Shown here: in pieces, positions 4,200 through 56,100 of the stretch
How positions within the stretch are numbered: the stretch's first letter is position 1
How the letters are laid out: every line of letters starts with the position of its first letter
Origin: Lutjanus erythropterus
Lineage: Eukaryota > Chordata > Actinopteri > Lutjaniformes > Lutjanidae
Assembly (NCBI GenBank): GCA_020091685.1
Contig: CM034603.1
Coordinates: 3,792,848 to 3,856,847, forward strand
Direction of reading: 5' to 3'
DNA: 64,000 nucleotides
Notes under the pieces: model-generated
Databases searched by the model: none
What the model was told of the DNA's origin: nothing
Seen by the model: the letters and a program-made list of their open reading frames with translations, nothing else
Translations under genes and position numbers: made by a program

Positions 4200-5130
4200 G
4201 TTCATTTAAGAAAATCCCAGTCTACAAGAAAAGTCTTTAGTTAGAACAGTGTTACAGCAAGTCTTGTTCTTATTTGGGTGAACTGACCCTTTAAAGTAAA
4301 ACTGAAATTGAACCCAGCTAATGCTGGAATATCTACGCATATATACATCACCTCCACCCTGAGCAGAGGTGCTGTTATTCTTACATTCTCTGTCTTTTCT
4401 ATTTGCTCCCATTACTCCCGTTCTTTCATCTGCAGCAAATACCCTGCTGTGTTTTTGTCCGTCTTCCTCTGTCATCTCACTTTCTCCTCCACCGCCCCCC
4501 CCACCCCCCTACGTACAGCAAGTATGCTGCTCCACTTTTAATCTTGCTCTTTTCTCTTTCTTTCTTCCTCGCTCCACTCATCCCTCCTCTGTCTGTGTTG
4601 CTACCTCCACTCATCGTCCTGCTGTCATCTCCTATGGGCTGCGGTCCAAACCAAAAGGAAGGGAGATCAAAGCTTCCCATTGCTCTCAAAGGCCACCAAG
4701 ATCAAAGGGTGGATATATAAGCAGACTCTCTCACACACACATAGATACACACACACTGGATAAATCCCATCACACATCTATACAGGAACACTGGTTCAGC
4801 TGATAGAGGTGCTCTAAGACGGTAAAGAAGAAAATGTTTGCAGCAGATGGATTTCCCTTTGTGTGTATGTGTGTTTGATGAGTTATTGATTACACAGGCT
4901 GATGGGAACTTTTTTCCTTTAATCCTGGTTTGGATGCACCACCTCACTCTGTTGGCTGGAGAGCCTACACAAACATGTGTCTCCGCTGATATGCAGTCAG
5001 TTTACCTCACTTACAATCTTTAATTTCAGCTAATAAATTAATTTAGAGAGAGCCAAAATATGAGTGGTGGTCAGTGGTGGAGACAAATTATTTTTGGATT
5101 CTGTTTGAACTGTGCCACGAATTACACATA
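4200..5130. other. pyrimidine-rich intergenic stretch with weak TATA-like motif
   Basis: From about 4380 to 4640 the plus strand is strongly biased to C and T. This opens several overlapping low-complexity frames (4369-4803, 4403-4720) that I do not regard as coding. TATATAA lies at 4714-4720, followed by a CA-rich stretch. It could be a promoter for an unseen 5' exon, but no coding exon follows before 7537, so I give this little weight. Confidence 0.3.
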
Positions 5131-5132
5131 CG

Positions 5133-5870
5133 CAGGGGTGGAAGTAACTAATTAGAAATATTCAAATTACTGTAATTAAGTAGTTTTTTTAGGGGGAGTA
5201 TGCATTTCATTATGTAATCTACTTAGTTACTTTTAAAATCATAGTTGAGTACTGAGTACTATTTGAATTAATATCCAAATGCTTCATCTGCATTTTAGCA
5301 GCCAATGAAGTGATCTGATCACAAACGGACCAATAAAAACCATGAGATACAAATGAAACACAAAAAAAACACTGCAGCAGGACACATTTGCAGTAATGCA
5401 GGACACATTTGCAGTAATGATGTTAATGATTAATGATTAATCAATTAATCATCATTAAGAATTTAACCAAAAATGTATTCATGGATATTTAATCAATAGT
5501 CTAGACATTGTTTTTTTCCAGGGGAGCCATTTGTTGAATTAAGAAAATTAAACTTAGACTTTAAATGAGGAAAAAAATGACCCAAAAAAATTAAAAATGA
5601 GAAAATAAACATATTTTGTAACTTATAACTAATATATACATATAAATTATCAATGGTTAATCAATTGTTAGCATTTTCAAGTACTGGTTATGGAGAACAC
5701 ACACAATTTGCAACCCTAGTTTGGAGAGGTGACTGTGACATCAATACTTAAAAGTAACTAATACTCTGGGTTGTTTTGCGACAAATACTTATATATACTT
5801 ATATTTCTAGCATCAGTACTTTTACTTGCAATTGAGTAATATTTTAGCAATGTAACAGTGTAACATTATA
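5133..5870. repeat. decayed DNA-transposon-like repeat
   Basis: The left edge, CAGGGGTGGAAGTAACTAAT, looks like a hAT-type terminus. The interior is full of ACTTAGTTACTTTTA and AGTACTGAGTACT motifs. The right part near 5815-5865 (AGTACTTTTACTTGCAATTG) matches the mirrored subterminal style. The matching CCCCTG tip is missing, so the right end is truncated or diverged. Confidence 0.45.
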
Positions 5871-7536: not shown

Positions 7537-30571
<23,035 letters not shown>

Positions 30572-39800: not shown

Positions 39801-39954
39801 TCTTTTACGACTATTTGTTGTAGGGCTGGGGGCGTTCACGTAGAGCACGTGAAGGCATCATTTGGTCAACGTGCGTTGGTGTTTGTCTCTCCGCCCCGAT
39901 TGTAACTGACAGCAGCAGAGCAGCACACATCTGTGAGACAGACGGAGCAGCAAC
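39801..39954 (+). promoter_or_regulatory. 5' flank and 5' UTR of the TspO-like gene
   Basis: CpG-containing segment just upstream of the start codon at 39955. It holds a CACGTG E-box at 39846-39851 and no TATA box. The 5' UTR limits cannot be set from sequence. Confidence 0.4.
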
Positions 39955-40054
39955 ATGAAGCACAACAGTTTGCCTCGAATTTTTGTCATTGTCGTCTGCG
40001 CGGTGGTTTTTGTCGCCATGTTAGTGATTAACGCTTTGGCGGGAGCGGGCAGAG
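39955..40054 (+). CDS. TspO-like exon 1 (residues 1-33, part of 34)
   Basis: [10 protein letters not shown] leads directly into the first membrane segment. Donor AGAG|GTGAGT, phase 1. The upstream reading has a stop before another ATG, so this start is well placed. Confidence 0.85.
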
Positions 40055-43000
40055 GTGAGTTAAAACTAACAACAAACACGTCACTCGTTTTCTCTGATGT
40101 TTTTCAGTGCGCGAGAGCTGAATTTGAAGTTCTGGCGTTCCGATGTTCTGAATTCTCAGCTCACTTTACGCTACATTGTAACACGTTAAATGTGGCAAAA
40201 CATTCATTTATGAAGCCTAAACTGCTTTGTTTTGTCCTTGGGTTATACAACTGTGTTTTCAGTGGTTACGAAACCGTTTTAGTGGGAGGAGGGAAGTTTA
40301 TGTTCGATGGCTGGCAGCTAATTAACTGTTATGTGATGTCCCTGGACGCTGCTCGACTTAAACAATGAGGAATTATTTCCATGACCGTCTAACCTTAACT
40401 TAATGAATAGGTTCAGCTACTAGTTGCGTAATTAACTCGTTATATAAAAAGTAGGAGAACAAAAGAACTTTTTAAATGAAGAGCTGGCGTTTTGTTACCG
40501 TACATTAATTTAAAGATGCTCCCAAACTTAAAAAAAACGACCTTTTTCTTACTTTCCTCAAACTCATAGTTACTGCGGTTAATCTTTGCACCTAAATTCT
40601 ATGCAACATTAAAGTTAACTTTAGTTTATGGTGCTTACAGCGTTGAAAAATAACCTCAGAAATCAGCAGCAACATCTTTTTCAACCGAAAATCACTGAAT
40701 AGTTTTTTAATTAGAGTTACTTTCTACCACCAAGATGTAGAAAGAAGTAAAAGAATGTTAACGGGAGTTTCTGTGGGTTTGTATCAGTGCCCGTGGTTCC
40801 CACACCCTCTGCTGCTCTTGGATGGAGGAAAAAAAAAGTCCTCTTTAAAAGGAAAAAGTGCCTCAATCTCTGGTCAGGGTGTGGCATCCAAATCTAAATC
40901 TAGACTCTCAAATACTCGGCCTCCTGGACTGCGCACTTTTTCTCCCTTTACTGTATTCCTACTATTGTACTATCCCATCCATTTATTAAAGATGTTTAAC
41001 CCATTCCAGTGCCTACAATTACATGTTTTATGCCACACCAGGGATCTATGAGACAACTGATGTCTTTGGACTATCCAGAGGAACAGGCAGTGTGTTTACA
41101 TGCTCTTTAGCAGTGTTTGAGAGTAACTATTAAGGTCACATACTAAAGTGCTGTATGTTTTTGAGCAGGTTTGGGAACAGATCACATGTAATGGGATTAT
41201 GTAATCTGGATACAAAAAAAGTAACTGTGTTCCAATACAGTCACAAATAAAAGAGAAAAAAATGGACATAATTTAGATTACAGTTTTAAAATAAAGAATG
41301 ATATACCACCATGCACAGTGACAAAATGCTTCACTGGGTGAAAATTTCACAATGTTTTGTGTTTAAATCAATCAATCAATAAATAAATTGTACATAACAT
41401 AGGAAGGAACAGCTGGACAAACTAATAAACCTAACAACCAACATAAAACACGGCATCAATTGACTATTAATTTAACATGCATCTATTTTGATAATTGATT
41501 AGTTATTTAGAGTTTGTTTTTGTTTTTGTTTTTAAGAAAAGAATCTGTGATTTCAACTTCTTAAATGTGAATATTTTCTGGTTTCGGAATATTTTTAAGT
41601 TGTGGTCAAACAAGACATTTGAGGAAGTCACTTTGAGCTTTGATCAACATTTTTCACAATTTTCTGACATTTTATGGACCAAACAAATTATTGATTAATT
41701 CAGAAAATTATAAAACAATAAAAATACTATATTAGGCTAAATATTGTCACCATATGTTATGAAAAGTAACAGAAGGTACTCAAGTTACATTACGTTACGT
41801 TCGATTGTGTTACTGACTACATTCTTTTTAAAGGCAATTCGTAACTATTAGCATACATTTTTAAGTATTTCCATTTTATGCAATTTTCTATATCTACACT
41901 ACAGTTTTACATTTAGGAAATATTTACTCCACTACATTTATCTGTCAGCTTTAGCTACCTGTTGCTATTTCAGATTCAAGTTTTACATAAAAAATAAAAG
42001 ATAAAGCTTGTAAAATACAATGTTTAAGTCTAATTCAGTGGTTCCCAGTGTTTTTGGCTCATGACTCCTTACATCAAAGCACTGTCTAGTTTAAGGTTGT
42101 TCCAGGTATCAAAAATGCCTCCAGTACAGCCTAATATTTTTTCTGGGGTACAGAGAGTAGTGGCGTCCTCTTTCAGGGTTAATAAGTTACATTTGTGCCA
42201 ATTTGTTTATCCTGAGCCAGGCCATATAACAGTAAAAACAGTCATATCTCACCCATACAGGGTTAATAATATACAGCTGTTCATAATCAGCGGTGTGGTG
42301 TAATAAAGTACAAATACTTGTTTGTTTATTTGTTTGTACTGGACCAGAGTTTTTAGGTATCTCTATTTGAGTATTTATTTGTCTGACAACTTTATACTTT
42401 CACTCCCTACATTTCAACACAAATATCTGTTCTTTCTGCTCCTTATGCTTTCAAAACAGGCTTCTTTAATATCCAAATGGATGGAAAAATAATTCATGAC
42501 GAGTTCAAAACTAACATGTAACAAGATGAAAACAGAGTAAAAGATGTAACAAAATGAAACAGACAAGAAGAGAGTCAACAACAGAGAAAAGGCATCTAGT
42601 AAGTCTGTCAGCTGCCTGTGAGAGGCTTTATATCACTACAGAGTGATTTTTAGACCCAAAAGGGCACATCTACATTCAAATAACTTTGAGAACCAGCCTC
42701 TGCTGTGACTCAACAAACTGATTTGCTTGCAGCATTTCAGAGCCTGAACTTGTTCACAGTAAAGAAGTGCCATCAGTTTTGGTACTCTACTTTTAGCAGT
42801 ATCTGTACTTATACTTGAGTAAAGGATGTGTGTTTTTGCCTCTTCTATCAGATTTGTACTCAATTTTGACCTATATGCAAAGTTCAGACATCAGAATCAG
42901 CATTGGGAAGGGAAAATATGGTACTGAAGCATCTTGAGTCTAGTAGGGTGTCCTTATCACACGTCTGAGCTATCAGCAGGTCCAGCAAACACAGAGATTT

Positions 43001-46000
43001 ACCCTCTCTTTATAGTGAGGTACTGTAGTGCTGCAGAGACGCCCTGGTCTAAATATCTTGTTCCTCAAATGAAAGAAAACATGTTTGTTTGGTATGGACT
43101 CCAACAAATGTCACATCATCCTGATTTTAATATATCTTTTTGTTGTTGTTGTTGTTGTTTTTTTCCAGTAAAAAATAAAAATTGCAATGCAAAAAGATCA
43201 TTCCCACTAATCGTATTGCACATCACAACTGCAATTTCAGACTTTGTTGCCACATCATTACCATTAATAATCCACAAGCTGCACTTTTTCATGGTTTGAG
43301 TGAGGCGTCTTAGTTCCAGTGTAAGAAAATCTTAATCAGCATACAGTCATTTTTTAGACAATAGTTTTTGTGCAACCATGGAGTCACAGTTTGTGTTTGG
43401 CCCCTTCCTGTTTCCACATGACCATCCCCCCGTGTTTCTGTCTTCTTTTTTCCAGGTCCATTCCATACCACTACAGGTAATGTGTCGGGCCGCTATGACA
43501 CAGGCATCACTCCAGCTGGGTGGACCTTCTCTATCTGGGGTGTCATCTACACCTGGCTCACCCTCATGGTCATATACATCACTACATACGTGTTCAGAGG
43601 GTGAGCTAACAGCATATAGCAACAGTCACACTAGATATTTACTCTTGCATATTTAAGCTGACTGATGTGACTGAGCAACTTGCAGTTGAAACTGATCCTT
43701 GTCTCTCTGTGAATAGATACTGGGCTCAGTATCTGCTGCCATACGGCTTCTATTTTTGCTGGCTGTCCAACCTGGTGCTGAACGTGACGTGGCTGCTGCT
43801 GTGGGACAGAGAGTATGTCTTCTACTTCTACTTCTTACGTACAGCAAAACAAAAAGAGTCAAGAGTGTAATGTGACTTAGGGTTGTTGAGGGAGAGGGCA
43901 GGTCTGTGAGGAAGAGGAGGAGCGAGACTGAGGAGGGGTAGAGATACCCTGAAATGAACCAGAAGTAAGTACTAACAGCTGTTTACATTTCAGCTGTGGT
44001 GTATTACCATTTAGAGGAGGAGGGATTGAGGACAGTGCAGGCATTTAGGCATAAGAACAGTAATTTATATGTGTATTTATGAAGGAAATCCTTCTTAAAG
44101 CTTTAGTTCATCAGAAAAAAGAGATTTGTCCTGTAGTTTTCTGCCTACAACCAATACTATCCTATAAAGACATAATATGCAACTTTTTCCTAAAAAAAAC
44201 GTAGACTCATATGAACATGATTCCTTTCGATCGTCACTTATGATCTTTAAGAAGTGTGTGATGTTGTCTGTACCTACTGAGACTCTGCCCTAGGCCTGTA
44301 TTTCCTAATTTTCTCATAGTTTTGCTGTGTCAGTTTTTGACATCCTGGGAATGAGACTTAACAATCAACTATCTTTCTGGTGCATTTAGGAACAGGTCAG
44401 GCAAATTCTACTCTTTCTATCTCGCCTCCCTTTCTCTTTCTTTCCCTCTTATACGTCTCTTAGTAGCACTTCACATCGCCGCTTTTAAAAATCACCACAG
44501 TCTCGGAACGTATGAGACATCCTGGTTTTGAGCCGCCCATGGGAAGAAGGAAGTCTGTCCTTTCATGATTAAAAGTTCTGTTTTCTCTGTCTACTTTTCT
44601 CTTTTTATAGCACGCCATATGAAATTACTTTTCTCTGACTCACTTATTCCTCTGACTGTCCTCTCTCCTCTCGGCTCTCTCCTCTGTGTGTGTGTGTGTA
44701 TCTCACTCACTGACTGGAGTCACAGTGCTTATCGAAATGCAGAGATCTGATTGGCCGAGTAGCGTCACGTGAGACGATTTATAACACGCGCAATTGGTCT
44801 GCGAGTTTCCTGGGCCACTAAACCAGTGTTGAAAAGGCCAGAAAAGCTGGGATAGTTAAAATAGAAACTCTTCATTTAAGCTTTAATATTTTTTCTTCTT
44901 TTCAGAAAAAAACATGAGATGTGTTATAATCAGTTATTATTATTTTACAAGTGGATTTTGTTGCACTTTTTATTCTTATCTGCGAATATAATTAGTTGGA
45001 TCTTAATTTGATATTTAGTCTTTAGCTTTTGGGTTAGGTGCTGAAACATGATCATCAATATATATGTGTGAAATAAGAGGGAGGCCTCGTGGAAGTCCTC
45101 GCAGTACTGTTCAGTAGGTGATGATGATTGTGACTATCATGTAAAGCCGCTGGTATGTTGTTGAAGAATCTGTAAAAATAGAATGTATCATGTGGTATGT
45201 TACGACTGACACATACTAAGGTTTTAGATAGACTTAGTAGTGAAGGTGAATGATTATTTCAGGCAAATTTAATATATTAGCTTTGTCTGAAATGTCTGTA
45301 TGAAATAAAACAATTGTCATTCATCCTGCTGATATGATGCATTTATGGTCCCTCTCTCTTTTTCTCTCTGCCCTGCAGGATGATGCTGGCTGCTTTGGTG
45401 GTATTAATCATGATAGCAATTACCAACTACGGTGCTGTGTTCTTCTGTTGCTACGCCACCGATTACTACGGACTCTGGTTAAAAACATACCATCGCAAAG
45501 ACCTGTGCTGTCTCCGAGTACTGGTACGACACAGTGTGTGTGGATGGACATTGCTGATGAAAAGTCTCATTACAAAAAAAAAAAAAACCCACATACGCGC
45601 TCTGTCCCCTGTGAATGATGTCATCTTTGTGCTTCCACATGTTAATGTGTTCAGCTCCAGAATGGATTGGCTCTCTACACCACATGGACGTCCATCGCCT
45701 CCCTGATCAACTTCACATTGGTTCTCCAGCTGTGGGGTGTGGCCAAGAGCACAGCAGCGACGGCTTCTCTCTGCATCCTGTTTGGAGAGATCATGGCATG
45801 GTAAGCTCTGATTGGACGAGGATAAATGGGCTGGAATTAGGTCATTTGTGAGGCAAGGACACTTATAAACTGGCCTACAAACTTATAAATCACTCGTTCT
45901 TGAGAAGTGGGACGAAACCATATTTTGAGGTTTTGATTTTTACTCTTCAGTCATGATGGAAAATATATTTTAAAAGATCAAACTCCTGGTTATCAAACCT

Positions 46001-48071
46001 TATTACGGGCCATCCTCCTACTGACTTAAATGTAGACGTCAACTAAGCCGACATCTGACAGAGATGACAAAATGTTTTTAATATCACATCACAGTCAGAG
46101 TGAGCAGCCATTTTCTCTCTGTCTCTCAATGTTAATGGAAACACACATTTTTAAACCATAATTCTTATTTAGCTTTGATTTAGAAGGACTACAGAGTTGA
46201 CATGTTAAGGTTGAGACATATCTGCTAGCAATATTATTGAATTCATTTATCAAAAAAAAAAAGAAAATTTACCAGTGCCTGAGCAGTGTTCCTGCCTTTT
46301 TAAACCAGGAAGTGAGACAGGGGTCTTGTCCCTTATCTGGGATAAACTTTTAAGGACAAACATTTTAAATCACAACGATTATAATAGCACATATTTATAC
46401 TTATAATTTTAGTTTAGTAGGTATTGTTAGTTCTAGACTTTGACATTTTTAAATTGTTTGATTGTTTGAAGTTTTGTTTTGTAGGACATGATTTGTCCCG
46501 TTTCTCAACAACAGGTGAAAAGTTAGTTAGGCATTGCAGCCAAAATATAGAGAAACAAGCCCAAAAACAATGGTGCAATAAGTGATCAGTGTATGAAGGC
46601 AAAACAGTATGACAATTATGTGATAATTTGCCTGATCAGTCACAATTAATACAAACACACAGTGTTATACTGTAAATCATTAACTGTGACCAGCAGCAGA
46701 CAACATCACACAGCATTACACCTCATACTTGAGCAGTTACCAAGTGTTTCTGAAGTGGTGAAAATATTAAAACTCCACAAACAGTATTAGCAGTTTGAAT
46801 TAAACAGAGGCTCCCTGTGCTCTTCGGACAAAATATTAAGCCAAACTTCCTTTAGGAGATGCGACATGTTAACAATTACTTACATGAAAAAACTCTAGAA
46901 CCACAAGATGAAAGGTCTCATATGTCTACAGTCTTCTTGTCAATTCAGCATCAACATAATCCATAAAGATAAACTGTATTTCTGTATAAACTTTCCATCT
47001 CAGCTCCCTGCCAGCCTCAGCTATTTTAGTGGGAGGAGACAGTGGTAATGAGAGGTCAAGAATTCAAATGTCTCACTAAAATACAAGCTGGTTAGTGGAT
47101 CAGATGAATTAAACAGCCTGTTTGACTATGGTGTAATTCCTGTCCTGTGGGCATTTCAAAAAGTAGACAAGCGACAAACTGACCATTTGATGCTAGCAGA
47201 TGAATCAGCTTTTAGTTCTGACAATGAACACTGTTATCATGAATCCATTACTTAGTGTTTTGAACTAAAAGTTCTTTGTGCTGTAGCAGCTGAAGGTATG
47301 ATCCCATTCTCTTTTTTATGACTGTAAGAACATACTGGTGAAAAATCTGAATAATGGTCACATTTTTTCGCTGCCAGGGAAAGCTTCAGTGCAGAAATAC
47401 TGGTGACAGTATCAGCCTTTGATTTTCTCAACCAAGTCAACAGAAACATTAACGTCCAGTAGATTCTACAGATGGTTGATTGCTTTGTCTCTGTGTGCAG
47501 GTACATCCTTGAGAACTGGGTGCTGGACCGCTGGGTGCGTAACATCCTGACAGTGTACCCTGTGGTGATCGTGGCTCTGGTTGGAAACATCGTGAGACAT
47601 TTTCACCCTGAGGATCCCACGATAAATTCTATATTTATGAGTAAGTGCTACCACAACTCTGACTTCACCAGCACCACATCTACATTCATGTTCATAGCAA
47701 CAAGCTAACTGTTTTTGACATTTTTGGTGAATCCTGGGCGAACAGGTTATGAACATATTTATAATATGTTCGTATTTAGATACGTATTTAGAATAAAAAT
47801 CATAGTGTGTTGCCTTACTGTATCCCATAAAATAATTGACATTTTTAAACTTGAAGGTTGGTTGCTGACCCAGTCATTCACTGTTGCATTTTATTCCCTC
47901 TTCTTCTGTTGCGTCCTGTCAGTCATTCTGCTGGTGGTAGCGTGCGTCCTGCTGCTGTTCCGAATCTGTAGCGTCGCCTGGAGAAACACCTGGCGGCCTC
48001 TCCTCTCTCCAGGCTCGGCACGGCTGATGATCTCACCCCTCGACGGCAGCAAATTCAAGATGTTTGCTTAA
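39955..48071 (+). CDS. TspO/tryptophan-rich sensory protein-like membrane protein (7 coding exons, 306 aa)
   Basis: Coding exons: 39955-40054, 43456-43600, 43717-43812, 45379-45523, 45655-45800, 47501-47640, 47923-48071. All join in frame with GT-AG ends. I predict eight membrane segments: about residues 9-29, 55-79, 88-110, 115-139, 165-187, 196-213, 226-242 and 257-272. [15 protein letters not shown] (51-65) matches the start of bacterial tryptophan-rich sensory proteins. LNVTWLLLW (103-111) and [12 protein letters not shown] (170-181) fit the two signature segments of TspO, seen in human TSPO as LNWAWPP and LAWLAFTTTLN. The best reading is a long, eukaryotic TspO/MBR-superfamily protein, not TSPO itself (about 169 residues, five membrane segments). 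Ligand and location are unknown. The C-terminal tail ([20 protein letters not shown]) is cytosolic by the positive-inside rule if the N-terminus is also cytosolic. No symbol is assigned because I do not recognise a named gene. Confidence 0.88.
43010..43262. repeat. truncated copy of the AGGGCTGTACGG MITE family
   Basis: TGAGGTACTGTAGTGCTGCA, then GAAAGAAAACATGTTTGTTT, then AATTGCAATGCAAAA, matches 16900-17070. Lies in intron 1 of the TspO-like gene. A (TTG)n run interrupts it at 43141-43160. Confidence 0.65.
43456..43600 (+). CDS. TspO-like exon 2 (residues 34-81, part of 82)
   Basis: Acceptor TTTTTCCAG, donor AGAGG|GTGAGC, phase 2. Carries [20 protein letters not shown], the strongest family motif, and the second membrane segment. 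Confidence 0.9.
43717..43812 (+). CDS. TspO-like exon 3 (residues 82-113, part of 114)
   Basis: Acceptor GTGAATAG, donor AGAGA|GTATGT, phase 2. Encodes [20 protein letters not shown] and [11 protein letters not shown], the third membrane segment with the Asn-x-x-Trp motif. Confidence 0.9.
44166..44260. repeat. second copy of the AAAGACATAMTATGC repeat (partial)
   Basis: AAAGACATAATATGCAACTT and the following CGTAGACTCAT and CGTCACTTATGAT blocks correspond to 25838-25915. Far end not found. Lies in intron 3 of the TspO-like gene. Confidence 0.6.
45379..45523 (+). CDS. TspO-like exon 4 (residues 114-162)
   Basis: Acceptor CCCTGCAG. Encodes [15 protein letters not shown] (membrane segment 4), then a loop with [15 protein letters not shown]. 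The donor after CGAGTACTG (GTACGA) is preferred to the GT three codons earlier because RVLLQNG fits the family. Both keep frame. Confidence 0.85.
45655..45800 (+). CDS. TspO-like exon 5 (residues 163-210, part of 211)
   Basis: Acceptor GTGTTCAG, donor GCATG|GTAAGC, phase 2. [20 protein letters not shown] carries the Trp and Asn of the TspO signature. Membrane segments 5 and 6 lie here. Confidence 0.9.
47501..47640 (+). CDS. TspO-like exon 6 (residues 211-257, part of 258)
   Basis: Acceptor TGTGTGCAG, donor TTATGA|GTAAGT, phase 1. Encodes [14 protein letters not shown], then membrane segment 7 ([16 protein letters not shown]). Confidence 0.9.
47923..48071 (+). CDS. TspO-like exon 7 (residues 258-306 and stop)
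   Basis: Acceptor GTCCTGTCAG. Encodes membrane segment 8 ([13 protein letters not shown]) and a basic tail, ending TAA at 48069-48071. Confidence 0.9.
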
Positions 48072-48642
48072 ACAATGGGAAGTATTTCAGTGCCTCCTGT
48101 CCCACTACCGCCTTTAAACTGTCGGCGTAGACCCACTTTTGTTTACATTTTCACACAAGCCACTGCAATGCTCAAGGATAAATCTTCCAGTTTTAGAATG
48201 AGGTTTTTACGCTTGTGATAGTGTTTAACTTGTCATGGATAATAACTGTTTCTTCCAATAGAATATTTGAAATAGGCTTGAAAGAGAAAGAAAGGGGAAG
48301 TGTTAAGAGTCTGCTCTTAAGACTATTCAACAATGCTTTCATATCTCAAACACTTTGCTTGAAATACTAATAAACTGCAACTGTTTGCACTACTTTCCAT
48401 TAATATTGTCTGTATGTAAAGCACTTTTTATACAAATGCATGCATATGGTTTGAGTATTGTGTTTTGTACTACTATTTTAAGGTAGTTTTATTATTGCAT
48501 TTGTGGCTTTTTTCATTTTCTATCCATATAATTACAATTGATATACTGTCAGTATATGTTGGCTTTTTGACAGTGTCATTTGATTAAATGAAGTCATCTT
48601 TTCTAAAAGTAATTAAGAGGTTGAATTCATTCTGAAATTCCA

Positions 48643-53167: not shown

Positions 53168-56100
53168 ATATCCTTTAAGTTCTTCTTCATGAAAGTAAAC
53201 TGGTTCTAAAGTTACACGAGCTCAGACAGACACGGCGCGAGCCACCCGGAACAGCAGCTAGCAGCGAGCTAACCTTAGGGCTAACCGTACAATATGTTTA
53301 GCTAGCTGAGGGCTAAAAGAAGGCACAGTATTGTATATTTAGTCTAAGTTCCAGTTTCGCAGACTGTTTTTATATATATTCTTTTAACAGTTGTATAGTG
53401 TTATGTGAGACACATTTATTAGGCTCTGGGTTCGCGGTTTGCAGGAAATTTCCGCTGAGTAGATGTCAAAGTGACGTTTCCGGGTGTCAGTTCACAGGAG
53501 GGTGTGGTCGCTGACTTTTCAAGGTTTAGCGTTTCAAGCGTTAGCAAGTGATGTAATCAGACGTGTTTTTGTGTGTGTGTCATAATACCTAACATCAGTG
53601 CTCTTTAATTATCCAGTGCAGTTTACGTACTAATTAGTGGTTAGTTATTATTAGTAGTGCATTCATGTGGTGTCGAAATAATAGGAAAAATGATTTCCCG
53701 ACTGTGAAAATTCACCTGAACGCCCCCTTCAATCGGAGAAAAATTGACTTGGCTTTTGTGAAGTTCTGAGAGATAAGATCATTTACACCTCTACGTAACT
53801 ACTTATATGTGGTTTTCTGTGGTTTTCATAGTTGAGATCGAAATTGATCATAAGGTCAGATGTTAATTTCTGATTTCACCTTAATTTAATGAGTAAGGAT
53901 TTTATCTTTAAAACAGAAGCATCCTTGTGTTTAAGCTCCTGTGCTTCACTGGTGGCTTTTATTCAGCAGTAATGTGCTCCAGGTGTTGAGTTTCTTTGTC
54001 AAGAGCTTAAAAATTCAGCAAGTATTTTCAAGCTGCAACTTTTCTTTGTTAGGATGTAGATTTAATCAGTCCCTCCAGGATTTCCCTAGCTTTTTTTGGT
54101 GGGATTGTTGCGACCTAAAATGCCTGATTTCCCAGCAGCCTTTCTAGAAAATTGTGATCCTTGTTGCAATGTTCTTACAGGTTTCTTGTAATGAAACTGC
54201 AGGAGCAAATAAAAGTTGCAAAGAAATAAAACTCAAAGGCAGCTTGCTCTGAGAATTAAACCACACAATGCTATGAGCATTCTAAGTAACCTTACCAAAA
54301 CGGCTCAGGATTAGAAAAAAACAAAATCTGCGTCATGTGTAAATGAAGAAGTGCACCTGCGGGAACTCTTTCAGGAGCTCACATTCGGTCAGAACAACAA
54401 GCACAAAATTATAAAATATAAAAGTGCACAGAGCATTGATAAAATATCAATAATGATGACAAACCTTGTGTTCTTTTCACTACCAATGACAAAAATATAG
54501 CATAAAATTATGCCATGATGATTGGACAAAATTGCAAGGCTGTGCAGAATTCATAGTGATTTTTACTTATTAAAAACACACAAATGTCATGAATATGTTA
54601 CCTGGAAGGGCGCGCAGCAGTGATGAAAACAGTTCCTCTTATGTGTTTGTGTTTATTTAGCAAAAAATATAAATGTGTATGCATGTGTGTCCTGTGGAAC
54701 TGTGTTGTCCTTAACTGTTGTTTTGCAAGGGGAACATGAATGGAGCTCTCCTCGCTGCGCTAAAGAATCCTCCAATCAACAACAAGAACCAGAATGCCAA
54801 GGTATCAGTATTTGTCTTTGTAATAAGTGTAATAATACAGTCAGAAGGTGCTGACAGAGGAAATCCTCCATACTTTGACTCACAGTGTTCTTCATCTTCC
54901 TGTCTATTATTGTCTTGTATCTCTGGATGGCTGCCATTCATCAGTCAACTTATTTGAAGTGTTAATTATCTCCACCAGCCAGAAGGCTTCAGCAGGAGGG
55001 AAAGCCAAGTCACTGAGCTCCACGTTATTTGATGTACAGTTTCCTCCCTCTGTGTGTGCAGGACCGAGCAGAGGCCATGGTGGTCAAAGTGCTGAGCAGT
55101 TTTAAGAGCAGCGACATAGAGAAGGCCGTGGGCTCTCTGGACCGAGCTGATGTGGACCTGCTGATGAAATACATCTACAGAGGCTTCGAGAAACCCTCGG
55201 ACAACAGCAGCGCCGTGCTGCTGCAGTGGCATGAAAAGGTATGTCCTGTAGTTGGTGTGAGTAAAGAGAAAGCAAATGAAAATCACTTTTGTATGAACAA
55301 ACTGTGCATTGTTGTGTAAGAGTATTAAGAAGAATGGTCATTCATTCTGTTGCATTGTAAACTTGAGATGGTAAAATCAGCTGGTCAGATGTGAATGTTG
55401 AACTCACTGTTCAAAATCTGATGAACAAACAAACATAAATGGGATAAAAGTTCATTAAGTCTCCTCAAGGACTTTCCATTGGACCATTTGCAAAAATAGG
55501 CTGGTATTATTGTTCTATATTTTTGTTTGAGATAGACCAAAATCAACAATCACTTTGCTCCTGTCAGTGTATTTTTCTGCACATTTTGAAGGATCACATT
55601 TGAAGAGCAAACAGCAAAATTCTTCCTCAATTTTGCAGAGGTATTTACACATTTGAGGTGGCTGTTGCCTTTTTCTAGAGTTAATTCTATTAATATGAGA
55701 TGCACACAGTTTTTCTGAATTAGTTTTGAAGTAATGAACATTTAACTCAAATGACTGATGAGCTGTTTTCATGTCCATCAGTCTCCTCATGTCTCTGTAA
55801 CACATCCACGATGTTCCACACAGATCTGATGGAACCTTCCTCACATTAATACATGAAACTTTTTTCTTTTCTACATTGTTTTTCACTTCGCCAACCTGCT
55901 GTGTATTTCAATGAACCAACTCAGTTACAATTCAAGAAACACAGCTGTCAGTCCATCTGTCAATACTGTTTGACTTCTCTACCCCGTCCATTCTTCCTAC
56001 TAAAAATGTGATTTAAAAAAAAAAGGCTCACAAATATATAGTTTAATTTTTATAATAGTGCATTTGTTGGGGACTATTTTCAGCAGTGGATTAATCCACA

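Follow-up and report, generated by a model that had tools for sequence, protein, structure and literature searches.

A long TspO-like membrane protein of the fish Lutjanus erythropterus and its relatives in bacteria and archaea

A 64,000-nucleotide stretch of the Lutjanus erythropterus genome (contig CM034603.1; C13:3792848-3856847 in the 938 Mb assembly), termed here the window, carries a real vertebrate gene, intact throughout, that belongs to a long TspO-like family. Its product, the window protein, is very probably a distant homologue of TspO to which three helices have been added. Proteins of this kind are already known to databases; no description of the eight-helix variant was found in the open-licence literature searched.

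An intact seven-exon gene and its paralogues

The gene lies on the forward (+) strand. Exon 1 (39955..40054) supplies the start codon and the first transmembrane segment (TM1) and ends at the donor GTGAGT; three paralogues elsewhere in the genome, A, B and C, have the same exon with equal end phase. Exon 2 (43456..43600), supported by splicing and by comparison with the paralogues and with a profile, encodes a loop and TM2, including a 15-residue motif with P53 and W61. Exon 3 (43717..43812) encodes TM3 with the LNVTW motif (N104, W107) and is 18 bases shorter than its modelled counterparts in A, B and C. Splicing and paralogue comparison likewise support exon 4 (45379..45523; TM4 and a loop) and exon 7 (47923..48071; TM8, the C-terminal tail and the stop codon TAA). 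Between them, exon 5 (45655..45800) carries TM5 with a 12-residue motif (W173, A177, N181) and most of TM6, and exon 6 (47501..47640) the end of TM6 and TM7, with an 11-residue stretch ending in V235. A candidate polyadenylation signal, AATAAA, follows on the same strand at 48369..48374.

Joined, the exons form an open frame of 921 bases, 306 codons plus TAA, and all six introns are GT-AG. The first-pass annotation, made from the letters of the window, had described a 306-residue protein with two 12-residue motifs and LNVTW, about eight membrane segments and nearly twice the length of TSPO, and this description holds. The motifs lie at residues 51-62, 103-107 (LNVTW) and 170-181; hydropathy analysis marks nine windows, which amount to eight membrane segments because two overlap; and the canonical TSPO of L. 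erythropterus, on C2, has three exons and, as joined by hand, 161 residues.

Of the 24 matches that a genome-wide protein search returned at E <= 10, seven are exons of the window gene itself. Paralogues A and B lie in tandem on C21, with C 2 Mb away. Each has 313 residues and seven exons, at the same positions and in the same phases as in the window gene (the last exon of A was read by eye); identities to the window protein are 47, 45 and 38% for A, B and C. A fifth, strongly diverged member with a degenerate TM2 motif adjoins C; its three matching stretches lie in one extracted region (L152, 7502-9768), two of them within the overlap with another (L028, 43-768). What is matched on C6 and C3 is fragmentary, and on C3 it also contains stops. 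The family in this genome thus numbers at least five genes, a figure to be read as a lower bound. A search of the genome for the TspO family at E <= 0.001 found the canonical TSPO alone. Within an apparent transposable element on C6 (in the region of C6:15408665; L029:3196-3250) sits a lone copy of about 55 bases of exon 5, with no other exon matched nearby.

A probable kinship with TspO, by way of prokaryotic relatives

The profile search proposed in the annotation gives no direct match for the window protein, which has none in Pfam, NCBIfam or PDB at E <= 10. Since it does not itself reach the cut-off of PF03073 (TspO_MBR), the Pfam rule makes it a distant relative of that family and not a member. 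The connection is made by prokaryotic proteins. Searching plasmid-encoded proteins with the window protein gave three weak matches (E 0.04 to 2), two of which are already annotated as 'tryptophan-rich sensory protein'. The fish protein and these three were aligned to provide a pattern for searching bacterial and archaeal genomes, and at least 500 of the 593 stretches listed encode relatives by tblastn. The proposal that the gene defines a separate branch of the TspO family retained in fish stands as far as a related, longer and separate branch is concerned; the branch is not specific to fish.

The best 80 prokaryotic loci were retained. According to record titles and tree labels they include Bacteroidota, Bacillota, Actinomycetota, Chloroflexota, Spirochaetota, Fusobacteriota and archaea. 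Alignment A2 comprises 74 of them, those with over-long frames (L037, L047, L051, L070, L074 and L093) being left out; the second copy in a Chryseobacterium locus (L081), whose two long TspO genes are about 3 kb apart (4986-5756 and 8871-9635), is also outside it. The profile made from these 74 proteins (240-297 aa) matches residues 11-268 of the window protein with 73.2 bits, and scores 77.5 with B, 65.4 with A and 27.2 with C, while 200 shuffled sequences, the reversed window protein and fish TSPO all went unreported at E <= 100. The strength of the match, the silence of the shuffled and reversed controls and the conserved exon positions and phases of the paralogues argue together that the resemblance is more than chance. 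In an 80-row tree, midpoint-rooted for drawing only, the four fish proteins form a single group with support 100/100, whose branch measures 3.19 changes per column. This long branch stands beside all the prokaryotes, and a bacterial donor cannot be named.

Several results bear on whether the family as a whole belongs with TspO. Six of 30 long prokaryotic members exceed the TspO_MBR cut-off (24 bits); L059 and L104 are listed below it, and the remaining 22 of the 30 were not identified among the matches listed. Profile-profile comparison by hhalign links the long family to canonical TspO, with reversed controls near 1. The best alignments of an AlphaFold2 model of one bacterial member, L061, are with TSPO chains, which occupy ranks 1-7. 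These results speak against another eight-helix family whose short motifs resemble those of TspO by chance, a reading that we consider highly improbable. Three observations nevertheless weigh in its favour and against kinship: the lack of a direct profile match for the fish protein noted above, a Foldseek search without significant match, and a second bacterial model (L041) for which structure comparison listed no TSPO chain. In other look-ups, the three plasmid-borne members have no match to TspO_MBR in Pfam and nothing over cut-off in NCBIfam, two long members have no match in PHROGs at E <= 1, and the A2 profile has no sequence match in PDB at E <= 10.

Both bacterial models are of high confidence and each has eight membrane-length helices. 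This, and an invariant tryptophan in the three extra helices of the prokaryotic proteins, would suit a transporter or channel: all eight helices would then make up one new unit, and likeness to TSPO would be a poor guide to function. A binding role like that of TSPO accords no less well with the kept pocket residues described below, and we judge a transporter or channel distinctly unlikely. That helices 6-8 might be an internal repeat of helices 1-5 was considered and found unsupported (hhalign probability 0.7).

The ligand pocket and a possible role with tetrapyrroles

In the window protein the counterparts of Pro42, Trp51, Trp138 and Ala142 of Bacillus TSPO are, by profile alignment, P53, W61, W173 and A177; for the Bacillus chain, an offset of 2 from the literature numbering fits nine residues taken from PMC12767876. 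Guo et al. in 2015 are said to have found these tryptophans necessary for porphyrin breakdown. Docked ligands form hydrogen bonds to Trp51 and Trp138, as described in PMC12767876, and protoporphyrin IX occupies the same pocket in Rhodobacter TSPO (PMC6470738). Porphyrin accumulates upon deletion of tspO in Bacillus cereus, according to PMC13185565, which cites porphyrin breakdown in vitro and doubts that breakdown dependent on reactive oxygen species operates in its anoxic conditions.

We infer a function from the pocket residues and from a sparse gene context. Helices 1-5 of the fish protein would form a TSPO-like bundle, as they are predicted to do in L061, with a pocket retaining the ligand-contacting tryptophan pair (W61, W173), and helices 6-8 would be an added C-terminal part. 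The pocket may bind a tetrapyrrole or a similar lipophilic photosensitiser, which under light or oxidative stress would be shielded, exported or broken down. An eight-helix, long TspO that combines the bundle with tetrapyrrole binding and protection is the best explanation we can offer for the whole, and we advance it tentatively, the case for and against being nearly balanced; its ligand-and-protection part, taken alone, is slightly more doubtful.

The nearest competitor is a protein of TSPO fold from which any tetrapyrrole role has been lost and which carries lipids or sterols or acts as an assembly factor, its conserved tryptophans serving for packing. Eleven columns are invariant in the 74 prokaryotic members (P54, F59, W62, I65, Y66, N100, W103, Y154, W157, A161 and W215 of L061), and the window protein keeps ten of them; at the eleventh, the added-helix tryptophan W215, it has V235, paralogues A and B keeping W. 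The invariant residues include N104, W107 and Y65 (window numbering), and together with the tryptophan of the added helices they show that conservation extends beyond the pocket, a point in favour of this competitor. Against this, the tryptophans aligned to Bacillus W51 and W138 are kept in all 78 aligned sequences (74 of 74 prokaryotic, 4 of 4 fish), and the long TspO gene lies beside pigment genes at three loci. We regard a carrier or assembly factor as rather unlikely.

Gene neighbourhoods in prokaryotes and phages

Those three loci emerged from a scan of the immediate neighbours at the 80 loci (150 of 157; seven over-long ones were omitted). The neighbours are diverse: they fall into 154 Pfam families, of which the most frequent have four members each, and they include three lycopene cyclases and two photolyases. 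Lycopene cyclase thus adjoins the long TspO gene in 3 of 80 loci, and in two of these photolyase does so too; a search with a single query sequence, covering flanks of up to 5 kb, did not find the cyclase at the remaining 77. The two Salinimicrobium loci (L041, L088) share the order oxidoreductase, phytoene-synthase-like frame, a further frame, hydroxylase-like frame, lycopene cyclase, long TspO, photolyase, the synthase and hydroxylase frames having been scanned in L041 only. We take the first oxidoreductase for a phytoene desaturase, from its Amino_oxidase match in L041. Upstream in L088 is a MerR regulator that has a B12-binding match just below cut-off; B12-MerR light sensors of the CarH/LitR kind are known. 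The third locus, in Sphingobacterium (L076), has an oxidoreductase and lycopene cyclase. Elsewhere, a photolyase-like frame lies about 4 kb from the long TspO gene in L086, and L085 shows a weaker oxidoreductase match.

A long TspO is also encoded on eleven viral contigs, with 58-61% identity to the Fusobacteria member L099. On two of these contigs, which were looked at more closely (L148:619-3768 and L145:244-6565), the gene is next to or surrounded by genes for a major tail protein and another tail protein, and in L145 also for a tape measure protein, a placement resembling that of phage cargo. A viral scan with the fish protein alone as query confirmed no relative.

A possible link to light in fish

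A candidate regulatory element, the E-box CACGTG, lies 109 bases before the ATG (39846..39851, no strand assigned). One such E-box occurs within 600 bases upstream of each of the window gene, A, B and C (-109, -572, -253 and -141), a pattern noticed after four motifs had been tried. The 2 kb upstream of the window gene contain no consensus match to the light-responsive D-box. Relaxed D-box matches occur in its intron 1, at 40424, and upstream of A (three, against 0.62 expected per 2.3 kb by shuffling) and B (one), with none at C.

The zebrafish gene si:ch211-161h7.5, which we take to be the name-giver of PANTHER PTHR33802, presumably belongs to the long TspO-like family. A table of PMC11589825 compares two treatments, apparently melatonin or a peptide and not a light pulse; in one of the two comparisons this gene is raised, along with cry5, cry-dash and ddb2. 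The canonical tspo and heme genes are light-regulated in zebrafish cells, according to PMC12561580. We grade the link to light in fish as weak. A still broader proposal would make the long TspO an ancient light-protection module: an eight-helix tetrapyrrole handler that serves bacteria within carotenoid-photolyase clusters, travels with tailed phages, and has been retained in fish and multiplied there, with at least one copy in a light-induced set with photolyases and heme genes. In that full form it is unlikely.

Surroundings of the gene in the window

The gene is flanked downstream by an exon (55017-55316) that matches the ARP2/3 16 kDa subunit. Upstream, frames at 20389-21069 and 30023-30361 may belong to the C5orf22/UPF0489 gene, but Pfam finds nothing in either. 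An open frame at 11004-11501 matches the DDE_3 transposase and reads as Tc1/mariner-like.

Comparison with TSPO and other known systems

TSPO is widely used as a target for drugs and imaging, yet what it basically does is still in dispute. The title of one review (PMC6032217) calls its functions elusive. Here a longer branch is added on the vertebrate side: it shares the ligand tryptophans, has at least five genes in a single fish and extends to bacteria and archaea. It provides a natural comparison, which could address the role of the pocket in a protein with three further helices and whether protection from porphyrins came first.

Among the prokaryotic long members, WP_025436961.1 of Peptoclostridium (314 aa) and WP_125958510.1 of Vagococcus (261 aa) have aligned motif positions equal to those of the window protein. 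The four fish proteins differ from the prokaryotic members in lacking W at the nearly invariant columns 175 and 185, and the window protein and paralogue C also lack it at column 215. Likeness to TSPO/TspO (PF03073) resides in the predicted five-helix part of L061 and in the pocket residues. Canonical TSPO (18 kDa) has about 160 residues and five helices, whereas the window protein has eight segments; compared with the TSPO of its own genome it has 306 residues against 161, three added helices and no direct Pfam match. The best reading of these likenesses and differences is that the long, eight-helix branch is a sister of TspO.
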